Shown here in pieces: positions 3,761-63,341 of a stretch of 64,000 nt of DNA; positions within the stretch are counted from its first letter, which is position 1; each line of letters opens with the position of its first letter. This DNA comes from Musa acuminata AAA Group (taxonomy: Eukaryota > Streptophyta > Magnoliopsida > Zingiberales > Musaceae): contig NC_088347.1 of NCBI RefSeq assembly GCF_036884655.1, positions 13,636,001 to 13,700,000 of the forward strand. The letters are read 5' to 3'. Under the pieces are notes generated by a model. That model worked only from the letters and a program-made list of their open reading frames with translations. It had not been told where the DNA came from and did not search any database. The position numbers and the translations under genes were made by a program.

Positions 3761-3796
3761 AACGATTGATTGTGATACTTCTCCTTTTTGTTGATG

Positions 3797-3809
3797 ACAA
3801 AGGGGGAGA
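3797..3809 (+). promoter_or_regulatory. N1 internal polypurine tract 2
   Basis: ACAAAGGGGGAGA preceded by TTTTTGTTGATG. A near-identical block is found in N5 (~57700), S1 (~20905) and, in reverse, N2-N4. Confidence 0.75.
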
Positions 3810-3913
3810 AGTATGTTGATGAAAGTATGTTGATGACATGACATGTGATGCATAAGTTTATGCATATGTTCATGTTGACGTGTTGCAAGTATTCATGATG
3901 AATATTGGAATTA

Positions 3914-4001
3914 CTTGAATTCAGTTTGAATTCAAGGTTCTATCAATATGGCATATTGATAGGGGGAGTTTGTTTAAACTTCGGGAGTTAAGTTTAACTC
4001 C
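3914..4001 (+). other. N1 chain of palindromes upstream of the terminal PPT
   Basis: Three inverted repeats in a row. 3914-3936: arms CTTGAATTC / GAATTCAAG, 5-nt loop. 3940-3962: 11-bp arms CTATCAATATG and its complement around one G, abutting GGGGGAG. 3984-4001: arms GGAGTTAA / TTAACTCC around GT. Between the last two lies a GGAGTTT...AAACTTC pair, which is perfect (GGAGTTT / AAACTCC) in N5. The order is kept in N5 and, reversed, in N2-N4. Confidence 0.8.
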
Positions 4002-4004
4002 GTC

Positions 4005-4075
4005 ATCAAGTGGTTGTCATCATCAAAAAGGGGGAGATTGTTGAATCTCGTATTTTGATGATGAAACTACTTGAT
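4005..4075 (+). other. N1 nested hairpin enclosing terminal PPT and 3' LTR start
   Basis: Perfect 12-bp arms TCATCATCAAAA / TTTTGATGATGA flank the PPT and LTR start. An inner perfect stem GAGATT / AATCTC has a GTTG loop, and the LTR boundary (TG) lies at its tip. A distal extension pairs ATCAAGTGG with CTACTTGAT (one G-T wobble). The PPT AAAAAGGGGGAGA is at 4025-4037. Confidence 0.8.
4025..4037 (+). promoter_or_regulatory. N1 terminal polypurine tract
   Basis: AAAAAGGGGGAGA one base upstream of the TGTTGAATCTCG start of the 3' LTR. This is the expected plus-strand primer position. Confidence 0.9.
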
Positions 4076-12396: not shown

Positions 12397-14029
12397 TGTT
12401 AGGATCGGAGCAGCACTAAGAGGGGGGGGTGAATTAGTGCAGTGGATTAAAACTTCGGTTTTAGAAAATCTTTCGTACGATAAGAACGGAACTTGAAAAG
12501 CTTAATCTTGAAAGCGTATTCTTAAATATGCACAGCAAAAGTAATAAGGAACTAAAGCATATAAGAAGGTTTGCAATAATGTAAATTGCAATAATGAAAT
12601 GCAAACCAAGGATCACGCCGATTTTAGAGTGGTTCGGTCAAATGACCTACTCCACTTGCGAGGCCCCTCTTCGATGAGGCTCCCACCTTCCACTAGCAAG
12701 TCTCTTGAAATGGAAGGGTAAATACCCCTCTTACAACTCTTTACAAGCGGTTCACTCTCTTACAAAGTTTTAGCAAAAAGAAGGAGGTGAACACTAGCAA
12801 ATTGAAAACAAGACTATCTAAGACTTTTCTAGGGCCTTTCTCTCAAACACTTGCTGCTCAAAAAGTTGTTTTCTCAACTGAGAATAGAGGGGTATTTATA
12901 GGCCTCAAGAGGATTCAAATTTGATCTCCAAAATTTGAATTCCCTTGAGTTCCCGAGGTTGGCGGTGCCACCGCTTGTCGACCGTTGCACTGGCGGTGCC
13001 ACCGCCTGTCCGTGTCAGGCGCTGACAATGCTTGGCGGTGCCACCGCCCAGCTCTTGGGCACTGGGCGGTGCCACCGCCCAGCTCAGGCAGTGCTACCGC
13101 CTATAGTGTTTTCAGCCCAACTACAGTGTTTTTAGCCCACTAGTTGGGCTTCAATCTTGCCCCAAACTAGTCCGAACTTGGGCCCAATTGGCCCCTACTT
13201 GGGTTATAGGATTAACACCTAATCCTAACCCTAATTAACATGCTAACTACGAATTTAAAGACATTTTCTAAGCTATTACAAAGTCCGTAAGTCAAGACTT
13301 CTTCCGGCGAGCTTCCGGCGAACTTCCGACGGTCTTCCGATAAACTCTCGGAAACCATTCTGCGGACTCCCGGCAAGCTCCTAGACTTCACGATTTGATC
13401 TTGGCGAGTTCCAACGAGCTTCTTTGGTAAGCTCCGATCTTTCTCGGTGAGCTCCGCGAACTTCCAACGAACCTTCCGGCGATCTTCCGAAAAACCCTTC
13501 GGCAAGCTCCCTACTCATTCTCAGCTAGTTCCGGCAGCATTCCCGACGAACCTTCGGACTTCCGTCGAACTCTCGAACTCCCAATGAATCCTTCGCGCTT
13601 GACTCCAGCACTTTGTATCGCTTTATGTCTTCATCGTTATCGTAGTTAATCCTGCACACACAATCCAAAACTCTACTTCGATCTAGACAGTTATTACAAC
13701 GCGAATCGACATTCCGTTGCCCGGCACGTCATTGGTTGGCACTTCGTCCAATTCTTCAGCGCATCGTCCTCTCTTGCAGCTTGTTGCCCAATCGGCGGTT
13801 GACCTCTGCAACCCCGATATCCTTGGCGCAATTCCGCTCTCCTTGGCCCGATGCCCAACGTCCGAAGCCTTCTGCCGTCCAATATCCTAACGTGATCTCC
13901 TCCGGCGCAACGTCAATTCCTCATGCGTCAACTGTCTAATCCTGATCGAGTAGACCTGCATCACTCAAAATGCAGTTAAACATCTAAACAGAATCAATTA
14001 GTTTCATCATCAAAATCCGAGATTCAACA
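12397..14029 (-). mobile_element. N2 3' LTR (beta type)
   Basis: 1,633 bp. In plus-strand reading it starts TGTTAGGATCG and ends GATTCAACA. GGCGGTGCCACCGCC palindromes lie at 12955-13105 and the TATA box (TATTTATA on plus) at 12893-12900. It has no 18-bp array. Confidence 0.92.
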
Positions 14030-14063
14030 ATCTCCCCCTTTTTGATGATGACAACTAATTGAT
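13993..14063 (-). other. N2 nested hairpin at terminal PPT / 3' LTR junction
   Basis: Same architecture as N1: 12-bp TCATCATCAAAA / TTTTGATGATGA arms, inner GAGATT / AATCTC stem and the PPT TCTCCCCCTTTTT (minus). The distal arms are AATTAG / CTAATT, different from N1 but still complementary. Confidence 0.8.
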
Positions 14064-20519: not shown

Positions 20520-21345
20520 ACTAGTTAAGATTATTTTTCGGACGTTATTGATTACTATTACATGCCTTGGTATCACTTGATCAGATAACATGTTGGAAAT
20601 TATGTGACAAATGTTTTTGAAAATCAGTAGCTTACTCATATCCGAATGCATGTAAGAAGCTCATTTTCGGTTTGAATGCAAAAAAAAAAAAAAAAAAAAA
20701 AAGGGGGGGTGATTTTCCTGTACACTCTTAAGAAAACCTTTTGAAAAATGAGTTTCCTCCTTCAAGCAACAAACTATAACATAACAAGAGGAAGAGATAT
20801 TCAAAGTATTATATGTGCCATGCCTTCCTTTATATGCTTGATAACCTACTGGAATCACATCTACCATACTTTTTAATAATGCTACCATGCTTTTTGTTGA
20901 TGACAAAGGGGGAGAAACATATGAATTGATTTGGTTGCTATTACTGATGTTGATATAATTGCTATCGCTGATACTATAATTAGGCCATACTTGCATCACC
21001 AAGAAATATATGATTACCATATGCCCTGTATCAAGATATCAAACAAAAATTTGAATCATACGAACTGATATCTTACCATGTGATGCAATGCTACACTTGC
21101 TAAAATATTCGAAATGTGTACATCATATGCTACACTTACAATATGATGAATTGCTACAATAACCATCATTCAAATTTGTTAAATTTGAAAATGTATGTCA
21201 AGCCTTGACATCATGATAGGAATCATGATGAGAATATGTCTCTTGAATTTATAAAGTTTTAAATTCAAGAAGTATGGCATATAGACAGGGGGAGTTAAGG
21301 TTAACTCCATTATCAATTGATTGTCATCATCAAAAAGGGGGAGAT
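20520..21345 (+). other. S1 3' non-coding region
   Basis: No gene seen. It contains an A(20+)G7 tract at 20680-20709, a PPT copy (GATGACAAAGGGGGAGAA) near 20905, and an imperfect CTTGAATTT / AAATTCAAG hairpin near 21242. An AGGGGGAG tract near 21290 is followed by a GGAGTTAA / TTAACTCC palindrome. The first ~80 bp match N5 near 56790, showing that N5 keeps the post-pol segment. Confidence 0.8.
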
Positions 21346-21380
21346 TGTTGAATCTCGGATTTTGATGATGAAGTCAATTG
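21312..21380 (+). other. S1 nested hairpin with terminal PPT and 3' LTR start
   Basis: TCATCATCAAAA / TTTTGATGATGA arms, inner GAGATT-GTTG-AATCTC, and PPT AAAAAGGGGGAGA at 21332-21344. The distal arms here are CAATTGA / TCAATTG, a third complementary pair. Confidence 0.8.
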
Positions 21381-26683: not shown

Positions 26684-27947
26684 TATTAGAAATGAGTCGG
26701 CACTAAGAGGGGTGGGTGAATTAGTGCAATGGTAAAAACGTCATCGGTTCAAAAATCTTTCATTCGTTGAAACCGATTTCAAAAAGATGTTAACTTGAAA
26801 TACATTCACAAGGGTGTGCAGAAAAAGTAATAAGGAAGTAAAGTTGTTTGCAATAAAGATAAGCAATAAAATAGAAATGCAAATTGTTTTATAATGGTTC
26901 GGTTGTCGTGACCTACATCCACTCCACCGATTCCTCTTCCGTCGAGGCCACCGGCATCCACTAACGATCTTCCTTCAATAGGCGAAGATCAACTACCCTT
27001 ATAACTCAATTTTCCTTTTGACAGGTTCAGGAGAGAACCTTTACAACCCTCTTTTACAAAGCTTCCCTCACACTCTCTATTAGAATGGTCTCTAAACTTT
27101 AGGAGGAGGGACTTTACACTTTACAAGGGTTTTCAACTTTAGAAACATAGAGTTTTTGATCACTTTTCTTACTACTCCATGTAGGAATAGCTAGGGTATT
27201 TATAGACCCCAAATGACTTCAAAACTTAGACTCAAAATTCAAATCCATAAGATTTCGAGGTACGGGCGATACCACCACTTGCACTAGGTGGTACCACCAC
27301 CTCCAGCCTAACACTGGGTGGTACTACCACCTAGTCTAGTAGTACCACCATCTAGGAGACTGTGTTTGGGTGGTACCACCACCTAGACTAGCGATACCAT
27401 CACCTGACATAGTCTTGGAGACTATGCCATTTAGATTGAGCCACTAGTAGTGCCATCGCCTGACCCAAATTTTGGGTTGCTGAATAGGCCTTTCTCTTGA
27501 CCCAAAATAGCCCCATTTTGGGCTTAGTTGGCCCTAATTGAGTTGGCTTAATTATATTCTAAACTAACTTAATTAAACTCTAAACTAACTCGATTTAGAT
27601 ATAATTGATTACAAGTAAATCCTTGTTGTCCTGCATGTCATTCATCTAGGGCTTCGTCCGATACTTGGGTGTATCGTCCTCTCCTTTAGTGTATTGCTCA
27701 ATCGGCATGTTGTCCTCTCGCAACATCCGATCTTCTTGATGCAATGATAGAACTTCTTGGCCCGATGCCCGAATTCACGGCCCGAAGCCTTATACCGATA
27801 CGTCGATCGTTCCTCCAGCCCAACGTTCGATTCCTCTTGCTTTAATCGATTTGTCTTTTCTGATTGAAACTAGTCCTACATCACTTAAACACACATTAGA
27901 TGACAAACAAATCAATTGATTTCATCATCAAAATCCAAGATTCAATA
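26684..27947 (-). mobile_element. N3 3' LTR (gamma type)
   Basis: 1,264 bp. GGTGGTACCACC-type palindromes at 27260-27430, many CpG sites decayed to CpA/TpG. The C-run hairpin is weakened to GAGGGGTGGG. It pairs with 61439-62193. Confidence 0.85.
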
Positions 27948-27981
27948 ATCTCCCTCTTTTTTATGATGACAACCAATTGAT
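27911..27981 (-). other. N3 decayed PPT / LTR-junction hairpin
   Basis: Same layout as N1: TCATCATCAAAA arm, PPT TCTCCCTCTTTTTT (one base off) and distal CAATTGA-type arms. The inner stem is AGATT/AATCT only. Consistent with an old copy. Confidence 0.65.
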
Positions 27982-28677: not shown

Positions 28678-30071
28678 TGTTAAATCTCGGATTTTGACGA
28701 TGAAGTTAATTTATATGTTGAAAAAAGTTTGATCTAAATTGTTTGTACGATGAAATAAATTGTACGATGAAATAAATTGTTTGATCTAATCTATATGTTG
28801 AAAAAAGTGTGCAGGATTAACTACAATAGTAGTAAGACATAAAGCAGGTGTTGTGTTGGAGTCAAGATTGAGATCTCATTGGGAGTTCAAGAGTTCATCG
28901 GAAGTCTAGACGTTCGTCAAAAGTTCTACCGAAACCAACTGAGAAGTTCAAGAGCTTGCCAAAGAAGCTCATCGGGACTCGCCAAGAAGATCGTCGTAAA
29001 GTCTAGGAGCTTGCCGGGAGTCCATCGGAACATTACCGAGAGTTCGTCGGATGTTCACCAAAAGTTCATCGAAAGCTCACCGGAAGAGTAATTGACGCAC
29101 TAGAATAAGAAGTGATATGATTATGTCTTAATTATCGTAATTAGATTATAAATTAAGTTAGGATTGTGAGATAATCCCACTAACTTAATTAGAGGCTAAC
29201 TGGGCCCTTAACAGGGTTGAATTGGTCCGAATTGAGTAGCCCATTTAGCACTTGAAATATTGGCCGACGGTGGCACTACCAGGGCCGATGGTGGCATCGC
29301 TCGAGAGACCTGTTCTCCCAGGTGGTCTGAGCGGTGGTACTGCCCCGACTAGGCAGTGGCACCACTAGCAGTTAATGCTGCCTACAGTGGTACTGCCCCT
29401 GTCAGGCGGTGGTACTGCCAGAGCTCGATCTCCGAGCTCTGTTAGGCGGTGGTATGGCCCAGTGTCAGGTGTCAAGCGATGGTACCGCCAATAACCCAGA
29501 AATCCAAGATGAGACACTTTTTTGTTCCAATTTTGAAGTCATTAGGGTCTATAAAAACCTCACCCTTTTTTGCATAAAAGGACACGAAAGTATTTAACAT
29601 ATTCTTAAATCTTTTGGGTGTTAAGTATTGTAAAAGTTAGAAAGAGTCCTCCCCTCCCTCTCTTAGCTTTGTAAGCATCCAAGAAAGAGGAGTGTGGCTT
29701 GTAATGGTTATATCCTAAACTCGAGAAAAGGAGAAAGCACTGTAAAGAGATGTTTGGTCTTCACCTATTGAAGGAAGGCCTTTAGTGGATGTCGGTGCCC
29801 TCAACGGAGGAGGAATCCGAAAGTGGATGTAAGTCACATCGACCGAACCACTCTAAATTCTGGTTTTCTTTCATTTATGCAATTTACATTACTACAAACC
29901 TCTTTAATATTTTTCTTGCACTTTTATGAAAGCTTTTAAATTCAATTCCTCTCTGCAATGGATTGTATCGAAATAATTTTCGTCGGAATCGAAACAAAGA
30001 CTTTTGAAATCGAGAAAGTTTTTCACTACATTAATTCACCCCCCCTCTTAATGCCGCTCTTGATCCTAACA
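28678..30071 (+). mobile_element. S2 5' LTR (gamma type)
   Basis: 1,394 bp, TGTTAAATCTCGG...TCCTAACA. Palindromic modules with GGT core (GGCGGTGGTACTGCC type) at 29260-29490; TATAAAA at 29550-29556; C-run hairpin before the end; no 18-bp array. Confidence 0.9.
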
Positions 30072-34726: not shown

Positions 34727-35748
34727 ATTTGTTAAATTTTATTTTCGGACTTTCTTGATTCCTTGGATCACTCACTTAAATCATGATCTTATAGTATGTG
34801 CAATGAGTCATATGCAGTTTCCCATACAAGTTTTATATGAAGTTTGAGTATGAATCTTCTCCTCTTATGATGTGAATTTTACATAATGATGTAAATAAGA
34901 TGCTTACTTAGATGTTATAACTCTTACTTTGATGTCAAAACTCTGTGCTGAAAATTTTATGATGTTGTGATCTATTTATCATACAAATGATGCATTATCG
35001 GATTCTTAATATTGTGAACTTTTGAATGCTACAATATAATAATAATGATATTTCATGCAAAGAGTAATGAAAGGCTATGTCGAAATATTTTATCATGTAT
35101 AAAGTGATTGTGCATTTAAATATCTTGATGTTTGATACATGAAAGTCATTGACAAATGTATCTCTCACGAATTTCACTCTTATGAAATTTTTTTATGAGA
35201 AATGGATTTGATGTAATGCTCCTCACTATGAAGTTTTATTCATGAATTTCTCCTTCATGTGATACTCCTCTCCCATGAATTCTTCCTTATTCTTCTCATG
35301 AAAAATGAAGGAATTCCAATGGATATCTTAATCTTTGAAAGATGAATTTTTGTATGTGATAATTATTTACAAGATTGGGGATTTTATTTCATATGGATAT
35401 CTCAATTATTTTCATGAATCTCTTTTCTTTGTCAATTGATATCTTGCTCTAAAATGATAAAATGCTATCTTTGTCATCTTTCATATTTGAAATATCATAC
35501 TTGAAAATGGATGTCATGCCTTGACATCATTTTTATAAATACTTGGCATCCTATTCTGAGAATGTTAGATCATGATAGGAATCATGATGTGCATGTTGAT
35601 AAGTTTAATGTACTTAACTTATCAGTTTGATTCTTCAATTCAAAGGCCTTGAATTCAAGAATATCTTTTCTCAAGTAAGGCATATAGATAGAGGGAGTTA
35701 AGGTTAACTCTGTCATCAATTGATTATCATCATCAAAAAGGGGGAGAT
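34727..35748 (+). other. S2 3' non-coding region and PPT
   Basis: No gene. AT-rich, with segments homologous to N1 and N5 (AAATGGATTTGATG near 35200). A GGAGTTAAGGTTAACTC palindrome lies near 35695 and the terminal PPT AAAAAGGGGGAGA is at 35735-35747. Confidence 0.8.
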
Positions 35749-35782
35749 TGTTGAATCTCGAATTTTGATGATTAAGTCAATT
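35715..35782 (+). other. S2 nested hairpin at PPT / LTR junction
   Basis: TCATCATCAAAA / TTTTGATGATTA arms (one change), inner GAGATT-GTTG-AATCTC intact, distal CAATTGA / GTCAATT arms as in S1. Confidence 0.7.
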
Positions 35783-41174: not shown

Positions 41175-42749
41175 TGTTAGGATCAGAGTGGCACTAAGAG
41201 GGAGGGGTGAATTAGTGCAGTGGATTAAAACGTTGGTTTCAACAAATCTTTCGTACGATAAAAATTGGAATCGGAAATGCTTAACTTGAAAGTGTATTTG
41301 CAAAGTTGTGCAGCAAAGGTAATGATGAAATAAAGCAAGTAAGAAGGTTTGCAGTAATGTATATAGTAGTAATGAAATGCAAACCAGAGATTACGCTGTT
41401 TTTAAAGTGGTTCGGTCAATTGACCTACATCCACTTGCGAGGCCCCTCTTCGATGAGGCTCCCACCTTCCACTAGCAAATCTCTTGAAAGGGAAGGGTGA
41501 ATACCCCTCTTACAACTTTTTACAAGCGGTTCACTCTCTTACATATTTTCAGCAAGAAAGAAGGAGGTGAACAGTAGCAAATTAAAAACAAGAATAGCTA
41601 AGACTTTTCTAAAGCCTTTCTCTCAAACAATTGCTGCTTAAAAAGTTGTAATCTCAACTGAGATTTGAGGGGTATTTATAGGCCTTAAGAGGATTCAAAT
41701 TTGGGCTCCAAATTTGAATTCTCTTGGAGTTCCCGATGCTGGCAGTGCCACCGCTTGTCAGTGGCGGTGCCACCGCCTGTTAGTGGCGGTGCCACCGCCT
41801 GTTAGTTTCTGACCCTGACAGTGCTAGGCGGTGCCACTGCCTACAGTGTTTTCAGCCCACTAGTTGGGCTTCAATCTTGGCCCAAACTAGTCCGAACTCG
41901 GGCCCAATTGGCCCCTAAATGGGTTATAGGATTAATACCTAATCCTAACCCTAATTAACATGCTAACTACGAATTTAAAGACATTTTATAAGCTATTACA
42001 AAGTCCATAAGAAAAGATATCTTCCGGTGAGCTTCCGGCGAACTTTCGGCGATCTTCCGATAAACTCTCGGAAACCATTCTGCGGACTCCCGGCAAGCTC
42101 TTAAACTTCACGATTTGATCTTGGCGAGTTCCAACGAGCTTCTTCGGCAAGCTTCGATCTCTCTCGGCGAGCTCCGCAAACTTCCCACGAACCTTTCGGT
42201 GAGCTTCCAAAAAACCCTTCGGCAAGCTCCCTACTCATTCTCGGCTAGTTTCGGCAGCATTCCCGACGAACCTTCGGACTTCCATCAAACTCTCGAACTC
42301 CCAATGAATCCTTCACGCTTGACTCCGCACTTTGTTTTGCTTTATGTCTTTCTCATTATCATAGTTATTCCTGCACACACAAACTAAAACTCTACTCCGA
42401 TCTAGACAATTATTACAACGCGAATCGACATTTCGTTGCCCGGCACGTCATTGGTTGGCGCTTCGTCCGATTCTTCAGCGCATCGTCCTCTCTTGCGGCT
42501 TGTTGCCCAATCGGCGGTTGACCTCCGCAACCCCGATATCCTTGGCGCAATTCCGCTCTCCTTAGCCCGATGCCCGACGTCCGAAGCCTTCTGCCGTCCA
42601 ATATCTTGACGTGATCTCCTCCGGCGCAACGTCAATTCCTCCTGCGTTAACTGTCTAATCCTGATCGAGTAGACCTGCATCACTCAAAATGCAGTTTAAA
42701 TTATAAACACATATCAAGTGGTTTCATCATCAAAATACGAGATTCAACA
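41175..42749 (-). mobile_element. N4 3' LTR (beta type)
   Basis: 1,575 bp. GGCGGTGCCACCGCC modules at 41760-41810; TATA (TATTTATA on plus) at 41673-41680. Confidence 0.92.
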
Positions 42750-42783
42750 ATCTCCCCCTTTTTGATGATGACAACCACTTGAT
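42713..42783 (-). other. N4 nested hairpin at PPT / LTR junction
   Basis: 12-bp TCATCATCAAAA / TTTTGATGATGA arms, inner stem intact, distal arms AAGTGG / CCACTT perfectly paired apart from a one-base bulge. Confidence 0.8.
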
Positions 42784-48142: not shown

Positions 48143-48178
48143 TTCTCTCGAGTGTAAATCCGAAATGAGAAATACCGA

Positions 48179-48190
48179 GCTCTGATACCA
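48179..48190 (-). other. N4 primer binding site
   Basis: GCTCTGATACCA on plus (TGGTATCAGAGC on minus), intact. Confidence 0.9.
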
Positions 48191-48192
48191 AT

Positions 48193-49716
48193 TGTTAGTA
48201 TCGGAGCGGCACTAAGAGGGGGGGGTGAATTAGTGCAGCGGATTAAAATGTTGGTTTCAACAAATCTTTCGTACGATAAAAATCGGAATCGGAAATGCTT
48301 AACTTGAAAGTGTATTCGCAAAGTTGTGCAGCAAAGGTAATGATGAAATAAAGCAAGTAAGAAGGTTTGCAGTAATGTAAATAGCAGTAATGAAATGCAA
48401 ACCAGAGATTACGCTATTTTTAAAGTGGTTCGGTCAATTGACCTACATCCACTTGCGAGGCCCCTCTTCGATGAGGCTCCCACCTTCCACTAGCAAATCT
48501 CTTGAAAGGGAAGGGTGAATACCCCTCTTACAGCTTTTTACAAGCGGTTCACTCTCTTACAGATTCTCAGCAAGAAAGAAGGAGGTGAACACTAGCAAAT
48601 TAAAAACAAGACTAACTAAGACTTTTCTAAAGCCTTTCTCTCAAACAATTGCTGCTAAAAAAGTTGTAATCTCAGCTGAGATTTGAGGGGTATTTCTAGG
48701 CCTCAAGAGGATTCAAATTTGGGCTCCAAATTTGAATTCTCTTGGAGTTCCCGATGCTGGCAGTGCCACCGCCTGTTAGTGGCGGTGACAAGCGGCGGTG
48801 CCACCGCCTACAATGTTTTCAGCCCACTAGTTGGGCTTCAATCTTGGCCCAAACTAGTCCGAACTCGAGCCCAATTGGCCCCTACTTGGGTTATAGGATT
48901 AATACCTAATCCTAACCCTAATTAACATGCTAACTACGAATTTAAAGACATTTTATAAGCTATTACAAAGTCCATAAGTCAAGACTTCTTCCGGTGAGCT
49001 TCCGGCGAACTTTCGACGGTCTTTCGATAAACTCTCGGAAACCATTCTGCGGACTCCCGGCAAGCTCTTAAACTTCACGATTTGATCTTGGCGAGTTCCA
49101 ATGAGCTTCTTCGGCAAGCTCCGATCTCTCTCGGCGAGCTCCGCGAACTTCCCACGAACCTTTCGGTGAGCTTCCAAAAAACGCTTCGGCAAGCTCCCTA
49201 CTCATTCTCGGCTAGTTCCGGCAGTATTCCCGACGAACCTTCGGACTTCCGTCGAACTCTCGAACTCCCAATGAATCCTTCACGCTTGACTCTGCACTTT
49301 GTTTCGCTTTATGTCTTTCTCATTATCATAGTTATTCCTGCACACACAAACTAAAACTCTACTCCGATCTAGACAATTATTACAACGCGAATCGACATTC
49401 CGTTGCCCGGCACGTCATTGGTTGGCGCTTCGTCTGATTCTTCAGCGCATCGTCCTCTCTTGCGACTTGTTGCCCAATCGGCGGTTGACCTCCGCAACCC
49501 CGATATCCTTGGTGCAATTCTGCTCTCCTTGGCCCGATGCCTGACGTCCGAAGCCTTCTGCCGTCCAATATCCTGACGTGATCTCCTCCAGCGCAACGTC
49601 AATTCCTCCTGCGTTAACTGTCTAATCCTGATCGAGTAGACCTGCATCACTCAAAATGCAGTTTAAATTATAAACACATATCAAGTGGTTTCATCATCAA
49701 AATACGAGATTCAACA
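48193..49716 (-). mobile_element. N4 5' LTR (beta type), altered TATA
   Basis: 1,524 bp. The TATA position reads TATTTCTA on plus (48691-48698), so TAGAAATA instead of TATAAATA in the promoter-bearing LTR. The palindromic block is short (48765-48810). Confidence 0.9.
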
Positions 49717-51743: not shown

Positions 51744-54222
51744 TGTTGAATCTCGTATTTTGATGATGAAACTACTTGATATATGTTTATGATTAATCTG
51801 CGTTTTGAGTGACGCAGGATGCTTCGATCAGGATGAGACAATTAAAGCAGGAAAATCATATTGTGCCGAAGGAACATGTCAGAAGATTGGACGTCGGGCC
51901 GGTGGATCGGTCGGCGTATCGACAGAAGGCTTCGGGCCGTGGACTCGGGCATCGGGCCAAGAAGAGCGGGTATTGTGCCAAGGATATCGGAGTTGCGGAG
52001 TCAACTGGCCGATTGGGCAATAGGCTGCACGAGAGGACGATGCGCCGAAGAATCGGACGAAGCGTCGAGGGACCAATGACATGTCGGACAACTTGGTTAA
52101 TTGCTTAGGATTAATTGTCTCGATTGAAGTTTTGTTTTGTTGTGCAGGATTAACTATGATAACGATGAAGACATAAAGCGAAACAAAGTGTCGGAGTCAA
52201 GCGCGAAGGATTTGTTGCGAGTTCGAGAGTTCGACGGAAGTCCGAAGATTCGTTGGGAGTTCGCGGAGCTCGCCGAGAAAGATCGGAGCTTGCCGAAGAA
52301 GCTCGTTGGAACTCGCTAAGAACAAATCGTGAAGTCTAGGAGCTTGCCGGGAGTCCGCAGAATGGTTTCCGAGAGTTCATCGGAAGACCGCCGGAAGTTT
52401 GCCGGAAGCTCGCTAGAAGAAGTCTTGACTTGCGGACTTTGTAATAGCTTAGAAAATGTCTTTAAATTCATAGTTAGCACGTTAATTAGGGTTAGGATTA
52501 GGTGTTAATCTTATAACCCAAGTAGGGGCCAATTAGGCCCAAGTTCGGACTGGTTTGGACCAAGTTTGGAGCCAAACCAAGTGAGCTGGAATAGTGAAGA
52601 GGTGCCACCTCTCCAGCTTGGAGGTAGCACCGCCCAGGCTATGTCTTCCTGCGAGGTTGGGAGGTGCAACCGCCCCAGCCAGGAGGTGCAACCGCCTGGG
52701 CTGTGGGGTTGAGAGGTGCAACCGCCCCAGCCAGGAGGTGCAACCGCCAGGGTTGCAAGGCTGGGAGGTGCAACCGCTCCAGCCAAGAGGTTGCACCGCC
52801 AGAGCTCAAGTTCCGAGCTCTGCCAGGCGATGCAACCACCGAGCTCAGTCTTCGAGCTCTGGCAGAGTGGTGCATCAGCCTGAGCTCAGTCTCGAGCTTT
52901 GCCAGGTGATGCATTCACCAAGCTCAGTCTTCGAGCTCTGGCAGAATGGTGCATCAGCTTGAGCTCAGTTTGGAGCTCTGCCAAGTGATGCAACCACCAA
53001 GCTCAGATTTCGAGCTCTGCCAGGTGATGCAACCACCAAGCTCAGTCTTCGAGCTCTGCCAGGTGATGCAACCATCGAGCTCAGTCTTCGAGCTCTGGCA
53101 GAGAGAAGCAATCGGCAAAGCTCAGTCTTCGAGCTCTGCCAGGCGGTGCCACCTCTCCAGTCGAGAGGTGCAACCGCCTGATCCCAGAATTCTGGGATTT
53201 GATCGATTTGATCGTTTTGAGCTCGAATTTTGAATTGGGTTGGGGGCCTATAAATACCCCACCCATTCAGCACTGAAAAGATACAGACCTACACCGAAAT
53301 CTTGATCTTTTCTGTGATTCTAAGAGCTCAAAAGTGTTGTAAATCCTTTAAGTCTCCTCCTTCTGTTCTTCAAGTTTTCAGTTGTAAAGTGAGGAGAGAA
53401 AGGTCTGTAAAGGTTGTCTCCTGAGCCTGTCAAAAGGAGAGAAACTGTAAAAGGGCAGTTAGCCTTCGCCCATTGAAGGAAGGCACCTAGTTGACGTCGG
53501 CAACCTCGTCGGTGGAGGGAGCCAAAAGTGGAGTAGGTCAAGGCTGACCGAACCACTCTAAATCTCTGGTTTGCGTTTATTTTCGAGCACTTTATCATTA
53601 CTGCAAACCTCCTCCATTGCTACTGCTCTCTGCGCTTTCACGAACAAGTTCTAAGTGCTGTTCTTCCGAATCTGCATTCAGACGTAAATCGGCTTTCCTC
53701 GCTCAATCATCAGATTTCAGTTCACGTTTACGTCTTGATTTCAACTGCATACTGCCGTCTGCGAGTATACAAACAAGTTTCAAAGTTTAAGACGTAAATT
53801 TGAGTTTAGACGTAAATCTGCGTTTAGACGTAAAACTGCGTTTAGACGTAAATCTGCGTTTAGACGTAAATCTGCGTTTAGACGTAAATCTGCGTTTAGA
53901 CGTAAATCTGCGTTTAGACGTAAATCTGAGTTTAGACGTAAATCTGCGTTTAGACGTAAATCTGCGTTTAGACGTAAATCTGCGTTTAGACGTAAAACTG
54001 CGTTTAGACGTAAATCTGAGTTTAGACGTAAACTGCGCTTAGACGCAAAACTGCGCTTAGACGCAATCTGCGCTTAGACGCAAACTGCACTTAGATACAA
54101 ACTGAGAATTTGCTTTTGCATCATAATAGTTTCTTAACAAACGCAGCTTTTGGTTTTTAATCGCTGTAAGATTTCCGCTGCACTAATTCACCCCCCCCCT
54201 CTTAGTGCTCTCGATCCTAACA
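51744..54222 (+). mobile_element. N5 5' LTR (beta/alpha mosaic)
   Basis: 2,479 bp. The first ~840 bp match beta LTRs (N2, N4 in reverse), through ATTAGGGTTAGGATTAGG. From about 52590 the sequence is alpha type with GGTGCAACCGCC and GAGCTC modules (to 53180), TATAAATA at 53249-53256 and the 18-bp array. Confidence 0.93.
53784..54098 (+). repeat. 18 bp tandem array in N5 5' LTR
   Basis: Highly regular TTTAGACGTAAATCTGCG units; one unit longer than its 3' LTR partner. Confidence 0.92.
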
Positions 54223-54224
54223 AT

Positions 54225-54236
54225 TGGTATCAGAGC
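54225..54236 (+). other. N5 primer binding site
   Basis: TGGTATCAGAGC, intact, 2 nt past the LTR. Confidence 0.93.
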
Positions 54237-57890: not shown

Positions 57891-57961
57891 ATCAAGTGGT
57901 TGTCATCATCAAAAAGGGGGAGATTGTTGAATCTCGTATTTTGATGATGAAACTACTTGAT
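57891..57961 (+). other. N5 nested hairpin with terminal PPT and 3' LTR start
   Basis: As in N1, all arms intact. PPT AAAAAGGGGGAGA at 57911-57923; the LTR begins at 57925 in the hairpin tip. Confidence 0.82.
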
Positions 57962-62193: not shown

Positions 62194-62878
62194 TGTTGGG
62201 AAGAAACCTGTTAAAGCGGAATAATTCTTTCCCCTCTTTGTGTATCAAAATGAGTTCCTCATCAAAATACCAACTTGATATCCAAATGAAAATATCAACC
62301 ATCACAGCATAAACAATAGAGCAAAAATCAATCACATAGTGAGACCAAATCTTTTAACGTGAAAAACCCAATGTGGGAAAAACCACGGGACCGTAGTCCA
62401 CCTCAAACTTCCACTATCAATGATAACAGGTTTACAGTAGGTCTTCTCTAGAATAACTAGAGGATCAGAATAACATCAAGATCATAGATCTTGGCTCAAG
62501 AATAACATATCTTCATCATGTACGATGGATCTCCTCAAAAGAGAATTCTAAGTCTCACAGAGTGGATATCACATGAAAGTATGTTAGAGAGGGTAAACTG
62601 TAGATCAACACCGTTAGGATTGTAGAGTTTACTGCAAGGATTCTCCACATAAAATTTGGGCCAAAATTGACAACATTTGGCCACCGATCGTCAAGCAGAA
62701 ATCTCAGAAACCTAATCTTTCTCTCTCTATTTTTCTCTACACGTCGCTGCATGCTACAATCTGCACACACCCTGCGCACGCTACCATCTCACTCAATTTT
62801 GCCCTTTCTCTCTTGATTTCTTTGATTTGGGCTGATGGCCCAAATTTGTCCAAGCCCACATATGGGCTGGACCCAACA
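62194..62878 (-). mobile_element. T1 3' LTR
   Basis: TG...CA termini and the PPT directly adjacent. It includes a pyrimidine-rich stretch (62719-62740). Confidence 0.85.
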
Positions 62879-62894
62879 ATTCTCCCCCTCCAGC

Positions 62895-63341
62895 TCATAT
62901 GGTGGGCTGTACCAAGCCCGCTCTTCGCCTACATGCTTCAAGCTTCTCCTTAGGCAAAGACTTTATCAATATATCTGAACCATTCTCATTGGTATGCACC
63001 TTTTCCAACTGTAATTCTTTCATCTCAAGCACATCACGAATCCAGTGATATCTCACATCAATATGCTTGGATCTAGAATGGTATGTTGAATTCTTGGAGA
63101 GGTGAATGGCGCTCTGACTATCACAGTAAACAGTATATACTTCCTGTTTCAAGCCCAATTCCTGTAGAAACTTTTTCATCCATAAAGTTTCCTTACAAGC
63201 TTCAGTAACTGCTATGTATTCTGCTTCTGTGGTTGATAGAGCAACACACTTCTGTAACTTAGACTGCCAAGAGACTGCTCCTCCTGCAAATATCATCAAG
63301 AATCCCAAAATGGACTTCCTGGAATCAGTATCAAAATACAA
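62895..63341 (-). pseudogene. pol: T1 pol remnant: RNase H domain
   Basis: 148 readable codons: ALSTTEAEYIAVTEACKE (catalytic Glu), YCDSQSAIHLSKN (catalytic Asp), SKHIDVRYHWIRD, ending GLVQPTI one base before the PPT, the usual place for a Tork-type pol stop. The first RNase H Asp motif upstream (DADYAGD type) is not readable; the frame is disrupted just before YFDTDSRKS. RT is absent. Non-functional alone. Confidence 0.88.

Follow-up and report, generated by a model that had tools for sequence, protein, structure and literature searches.

Sireviruses carry several identical PPTs near the 3'LTR, and in the sections of Bousios et al. (2010; PMC2829016) available to us the choice of the right one is left as a proposal. 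In the same sections, an inverted repeat is described that flanks the terminal PPT and the start of the 3'LTR in all but three of the Sireviruses studied, and in almost half of the classic copia elements. Its arms average 28 bp and are 89% identical, with a less conserved periphery. A role in PPT marking was proposed, in which the repeat would expose the terminal PPT to RNase H, and the upstream PPTs were said to be without an inverted repeat. High conservation of the PPT/LTR junction has likewise been published, as far as the accessible text goes. Benachenhou et al. (2013; PMC3601003) bring up a PPT hairpin as a discussion remark with no test in the part of the article consulted. In the Ty3 genomic RNA, SHAPE-MaP shows the PPT of this retrotransposon as base-paired, in a region of lower probability (PMC11381356); this is a different element, and the excerpted text mentions no PPT-flanking internal/LTR hairpin. 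Maize Sirevirus LTRs, as described in the consulted portion of PMC10760457, possess palindromic, small-RNA-rich regions with strong predicted secondary structure, which differ in that they reside in the LTR regulatory region and not at the PPT junction. No covariation test of a PPT/3'LTR hairpin was recognised in the literature searched (open-licence papers, mostly by listing), and the two literature matches to the junction 14-mer are unrelated by title.

The outer structure analysed here is the published Sirevirus inverted repeat. As in the available description by Bousios et al. (2010), the left arm borders the terminal AGGGGGAG, the right arm lies inside the 3'LTR, and the loop holds the PPT, AT-TG (the hyphen marks the LTR boundary) and the LTR start. 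The outer repeat and its proposed PPT-marking role have thus been known since 2010. Added here are the lineage covariation of the outer arms, an inner stem over the LTR boundary, the contrast between an open terminal and folded upstream octamers, and the same layout with different arms in an unrelated copia junction at 62889 on the minus strand. In contrast to this, neither the inner stem nor covariation or compensatory change is named in the text of PMC2829016 at hand.

Elements carrying the junction hairpin

Judged by their sequence, the elements in the window (the whole 64,000-nt stretch of Musa acuminata DNA analysed) are copia elements of Sirevirus-like type. The domains Retrotran_gag_2, rve, gag_pre-integrs and RVT_2 occur in the ORFs, as read window-wide and not element by element. 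The terminal PPT AGGGGGAG followed by AT-TG is exact in six of the seven quoted junctions, with AGAGGGAG in N3, and exact AGGGGGAG octamers are clustered upstream at six of the seven, none being listed for S2. With respect to the PBS, TATCAGAGC was found after CA-ATTGG; LTRs end in ..AACA-ATTGGTATCAGAGC at N5, N4 and others, and the PBS is TGGTATCAGAGC following AACA-AT. The C-rich 'integrase signal' known from publications was also present near the LTR end: 29 distinct ends match the C-run motif, in 10 of which the PBS follows within 60 bases. In gag/integrase/RT, PPT, PBS, C-run and clustered octamers, these elements agree with the Sireviruses of PMC2829016 as far as its text was consulted.

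The 27-base junction core has 16,852 exact copies in the 1.53-Gb genome (8,391 and 8,461 per strand), which makes a natural mutagenesis set within one genome. Some exact junctions form runs about 6 kb apart on one strand (C1:20543981-20562369, C5:26975584-26987370 and C2:6309522-6322492) and look like tandem elements sharing LTRs. A search of Rfam returned no match at gathering score. Exact searches of viral contigs (3 stretches) and prokaryote contigs (13 stretches) led to 16 places, none with Sirevirus-like junction arms, and all comparisons therefore come from one genome. Four of the 16 (L075, L078, L079 and L085) were rejected as relatives since they have other hairpins, with the G-run itself as an arm.

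Layout of the hairpin across the LTR boundary

The hairpin at the seven junctions is real; its parts are listed in Table 1. In the predicted fold the helix extends up to 23 bp and is flush with the 5' side of the terminal PPT. At N1, G4016 stays unpaired between the left outer and the left inner arm, a position occupied across junctions by an unpaired G or sometimes A. Within the N1 terminal PPT, AGGGG is predicted to be open and GAG to be paired in the inner stem. LTR starts were placed by comparison with the PPT-less copies at 51744, 49716(-), 18911(-), 5303, 7783 and 43222, and also from aligned LTR pairs of N5, N4 and N2. As the LTR start T4039 is the last base of the 5' strand of the inner stem, the LTR boundary lies inside this stem. 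The original prediction had the LTR begin at the GTTG loop and is corrected here, the real start being one base before the loop. Its other statements on the layout were borne out: the coordinates and folding at all seven junctions (7/7), the named pairings of outer arms, inner stem and distal extensions, and the origin of one arm from internal sequence and of the other from the LTR. The further statement that the distal arms are lineage-specific and yet complementary stands for the presence of the pairing but is too strict for S1, where the distal helix contains one U.G pair and the two outermost pairs are broken.

Table 1. Positions of the junction hairpins and related features in the window (N2, N3 and N4 belong to minus-strand elements)
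Feature	Position	Strand	Sequence or remark
N1 left outer (distal) arm	4005..4015	+	ATCAAGTGGTT; internal sequence
N1 left inner arm	4017..4028	+	TCATCATCAAAA; abuts PPT
N1 terminal PPT	4029..4036	+	AGGGGGAG; followed by AT and LTR start T4039
N1 inner stem	4034..4049	+	GAGATT/AATCTC (4034-4039 with 4044-4049), loop GTTG; spans PPT/LTR boundary
N1 right inner arm	4053..4064	+	TTTTGATGATGA; in 3'LTR
N1 right outer arm	4065..4075	+	AACTACTTGAT; in 3'LTR, one G.U pair
N2 junction hairpin	13993..14063	-	distal arms AATTAG/CTAATT
S1 junction hairpin	21312..21380	+	distal arms CAATTGA/TCAATTG
N3 junction hairpin	27911..27981	-	inner-arm mismatches
S2 junction hairpin	35715..35782	+	
N4 junction hairpin	42713..42783	-	distal arms AAGTGG/CCACTT
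N5 junction hairpin	57891..57961	+	arms identical to N1
Hairpin with upstream PPT copy	3775..3814	+	ATACTTCTCC/GGAGAAGTAT; AGGGGGAG copy 3801-3808 as 3' arm
Small hairpins beside upstream PPT copy	3940..4001	+	AGGGGGAG copy 3961-3968; include GGAGTTAA..TTAACTCC (3984-4001)
N5 5'LTR end	54180..54208	+	C-run between GCACTAA and TTAGTGC; PBS at 54225
Independent copia junction	62853..62908	-	left arm 62908-62890, right arm 62870-62853
PPT of independent copia junction	62889-62882	-	AGGGGGAG; LTR start 62878 inferred

Folding of the sense strand yielded MFE values (kcal/mol, z in brackets) of -34.5 (-8.28) for N1 and N5, -36.8 (-8.12) for N4, -31.6 (-7.68) for N2, -28.7 (-6.13) for S1, -20.7 (-4.04) for S2 and -22.9 (-3.91) for N3, and at each of the seven junctions none of 200 dinucleotide shuffles folded as well as the real sequence. 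Among 64 distinct LTR starts from the window and the loci L001-L050, the 42 that follow a PPT had a mean arm duplex energy of -23.4 kcal/mol compared to -7.5 kcal/mol for the 22 without a PPT, where the hairpin is absent. The pairing is hence confined to the internal/3'LTR junction, as had been proposed. Strong local folding as such is a property shared with other places: over N1 and S1, 15% of 224 folding windows had a z below -3, many of them in the LTR, and the lowest value (-7.0) was that of the junction.

Covariation of the outer arms

The junction sample consisted of 70 distinct sequences from 77 matches, 49 from contig C1, at loci surrounding exact matches to the core, and 21 from the window and the neighbouring 200 kb; one candidate that was not a junction had been dropped. 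N3 was missed by the matcher and stands outside the 70, so that it was judged only in the coordinate check and by sense-strand folding. The sample is thin in the divergent families of the genome, whose LTR does not start with TGTTGA or whose left arm is altered. The outer arms comprise 770 cells, of which 661 are Watson-Crick, 41 G.U, 27 A.C and 41 other pairs. The 840 inner-arm cells include one G.U and 22 A.C, with most left inner arms fixed by the search pattern. Own arms paired at -11.36 kcal/mol and permuted arms at -8.26 kcal/mol, the value of the own arms being reached in 0 of 10000 permutations (63 junctions, kinship ignored), and the excess pairing in the true register exceeded all 20000 column permutations of the 70 junctions.

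A tree was calculated from the flanks outside the hairpin for 64 junctions, six having been left out for too short a flank. When independent columns were simulated along this tree, the observed sum of 0.631 was reached in none of 1000 runs (null 0.001, sd 0.093, maximum 0.360). Thus, the outer arms covary beyond phylogeny in these 64 junctions as a sum over pairs. Taken singly, O03 was reached in 0, O08 in 5, O05 and O07 each in 6 and O01 in 21 of 1000 runs; the other six outer pairs were not significant against the tree simulations of the 64 junctions. Phylogenetic linkage, i.e., few lineages with arm pairs fixed by chance, would offer another source of the apparent covariation. The flank tree has a poor resolution (of its 61 inner branches, 7 are starred and 40 open), the sign tests on independent pairs had too few contrasts, O07 behaves independently genome-wide (see below), and ranking by duplex energy puts a lineage's own right arm first in just 6 of the 10 lineages tabulated. 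However, the null of the tree simulations and the column permutations both fall short of the observed pairing, and we regard linkage as a very unlikely explanation.

Genome-wide counts of junctions, which are numbers of copies and not of events, distinguish O05, whose two sides stay together, from O07, whose sides do not. For O05, exact 67-base junctions with CAAGTGG/CCACTTG occur 576 times and those with CAATTGG/CCAATTG 259 times, and the swapped arms 4 and 8 times, a strong association that may nevertheless rest on few events. For O07 in the AAGT background, 576 G-C, 2158 G.U, 503 A-U and 167 A.C copies were counted. With regard to selection at the RNA level, G.U is far above A.C, yet A.C is not below the expectation under independence (about 146 copies); the two sides of O07 are therefore independent genome-wide and do not covary, contrary to the result from the junction sample. 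The covariation predicted for the distal arms accordingly stands for the sum over pairs, but not for O07 genome-wide or for the inner arm and the inner stem.

Neither of these inner parts covaried in the 70 junctions. The inner 12-bp arm is nearly invariant except at I01, where 15 of the 70 junctions, many from a single clade, have a C.A mismatch, and the inner stem lacks covariation because its PPT side hardly changes. A U.G pair is found at O09 in 18 of the 70. The outer helix is thus kept as a whole, with single mismatches tolerated. In the CAATTG lineages, pairing is expected anyway, since the core common to the two arms is complementary to itself. More informative are AAGTGG, AATTAG and GATTAG, in which the own partner pairs at 11 of 11 positions; several foreign arm combinations also reach 10 or 11 pairs if G.U is allowed.

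Complementary arms could also arise without any function of the hairpin if one arm was copied from the other in reverse transcription or replication by fold-back template switching (quasipalindrome correction). Such copying would give paired changes, including the double transversion at O05, with few unpaired intermediates (4 and 8 versus 576 and 259), and for E. coli the consulted source portions document mutation by template switching at quasipalindromes. Mismatches nevertheless persist and multiply (U.G at O09, C.A at I01, and the 167 A.C and 2158 G.U copies at O07), and the process leaves the placement at the PPT and LTR unexplained in an unrelated copia element (see below) and in most Sireviruses, so that we consider it improbable. 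A somewhat smaller chance is given to the reading that the LTR side is kept for integrase (att site, inner terminal contacts) and that the internal arm follows otherwise or as a DNA cruciform. The LTR start and AT-TG are very constant among the sampled junctions and conservation of the junction is published, but the internal arm falls outside the integrated end and still differs together with the LTR arm.

Predicted exposure of the terminal PPT

RNA folding predictions with 150-nt flanks gave the first five PPT bases an unpaired probability of 0.89 at the terminal site (39 distinct sites) and of 0.18 at upstream sites (78), and the contrast was alike with 50- and 250-nt flanks. The suggestion that the hairpin marks the correct PPT fits this predicted exposure. 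The mean unpaired probability of the whole octamer was 0.57 at the terminal site versus 0.48 with shuffled flanks, 0.16 versus 0.36 at near upstream sites and 0.15 versus 0.32 at far upstream sites. Both the terminal and the upstream octamers therefore deviate from chance, and the deviation is larger upstream. In minus-strand DNA, pairing of the terminal octamer exceeded that with shuffled flanks (0.63 versus 0.83 unpaired), although it was lower than at the upstream copies (0.40 and 0.49 unpaired).

At the upstream octamers, no long arms enclosing the PPT in a loop were observed; these octamers are instead predicted to be paired in other hairpins. This predicted pairing, by which upstream octamers would form arms of their own hairpins, differs from and would qualify the 2010 statement that upstream PPTs are without an inverted repeat, as it reads in the available part of PMC2829016. 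Among the 77 distinct upstream octamers, 41 come after a T-rich motif such as TTTTTGTTGATGACAA. A small hairpin, GGAGTTA..TAACTCC with up to two mismatches, is located ahead of 63 of 64 junctions, with all seven outer pairs present in 48 of the 63. Permutation of the upstream PPT hairpins gave 5/10000 with GGAG included; since the outer parts alone reach 1107/10000, no covariation is claimed for them. In N1, the region 3900-4001 just 5' of the junction hairpin holds adjacent, near-perfect small hairpins at 3914-3936, 3940-3962 and 3984-4001. The predicted pattern of an open terminal and folded upstream octamers bears on how Sireviruses choose among identical PPTs.

The same layout in an unrelated copia junction

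A scan of 523 PPT-like junctions, 461 of them labelled as non-family although some of these are family copies read in another frame, produced one judged convincing, at 62889(-). Here, the last residues of a copia pol ORF are ...LVQPTI, and AGGGGGAG, AAT and TGTTGGG come next. The arms AGCCCACCATATGAGCTGG/CCAGCCCATATGTGGGCT do not resemble those of the Sirevirus junctions, but here too the helix runs up to the PPT and GGGG is predicted to stay open. The end of the pol ORF reaches into the left arm, as in some classic elements of PMC2829016 in the portion consulted. No second copy of this LTR start was found in the analysed sequence. The stretch 62853-63341 (-) is a deleted element of the classic copia type, whose PPT is flanked by an inverted repeat of unrelated sequence.

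This placement also bears on whether the hairpin might be a 3' structural element of the genomic RNA, acting in packaging, dimerisation, stability or end joining and unrelated to PPT choice. In genomic RNA the hairpin would exist at the 3' end only, because the 5' end lacks U3, and it is one of several hairpins predicted in the region. However, in two unrelated groups of elements its arms directly border the PPT and extend across the LTR start, a place that a packaging element does not need. We therefore consider such a role unlikely, although less so than fold-back copying.

A possible role in plus-strand priming

We tentatively propose, giving it slightly less than an even chance, that the PPT/3'LTR inverted repeat of Sireviruses acts in cis in plus-strand priming by presenting the terminal one of several identical PPTs. 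In the predicted structure, the helix abuts the 5' side of the terminal PPT and leaves AGGGG in an internal loop, and the fold is closed by the 6-bp stem, which contains GAG, AT and the first base of the LTR. Only the terminal octamer would then be presented open and in a defined frame among identical copies, RT/RNase H would make the correct LTR end from it, and priming at the folded upstream copies would be discouraged. The reasoning on PPT marking in PMC2829016 runs likewise, as far as it could be consulted.

The presentation of the terminal PPT is favoured by the hairpin in 7 of 7 junctions and its absence at the 22 PPT-less LTR starts, by the covariation of the outer arms, by the predicted exposure, by the layout at 62889(-) and by the published occurrence of the repeat across Sireviruses and in almost half of the classic copia elements. 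The independence of O07, the C.A mismatch at I01, the lack of covariation in the inner stem and in the outer parts of the upstream hairpins, and the stronger pairing of the terminal octamer in minus-strand DNA than with shuffled flanks speak against it, and all counts are from one genome. In addition, RNase H works on an RNA/DNA hybrid, in which the RNA fold of the junction is open, and the timing of presentation is therefore unexplained. Alternatively, the actor may be the minus strand, which could fold likewise once the RNA is cut.

The LTR ends point to a possible extension. The C-run near the LTR 3' end is flanked by GCACTAA/TTAGTGC in 23 of 29 LTR ends, where the search motif fixed part of the stem. 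Double stem changes occur in two ends (CATTAA/TTAATG at 30038 and ACACTAA/TTAGTGT), and three have A.C or G.U at the outermost stem pair. The stem appears in the MFE fold of 4 of 7 LTR ends, the N5 end in Table 1 not being among them, and the C-run is predicted to be unpaired at 0.66 to 1.00. It is complementary to the PPT G-run and could pair with the open AGGGG, which as a free duplex amounts to -7.8 kcal/mol. The 3' linker as a whole may be a PPT-presentation device, in which octamers are folded in their own hairpins and the terminal AGGGG is held open between two helices straddling the LTR boundary; the open G-run would possibly dock on the C-rich loop and so bring the two termini of the genomic RNA into contact ahead of strand transfer. 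We hold this wider model to be rather improbable. At the 5'LTR/PBS boundary of N4 (48155-48265, minus strand), a hairpin GCTC.GATAC../..GTATC.GAGC is predicted, and both LTR boundaries may therefore be structured.
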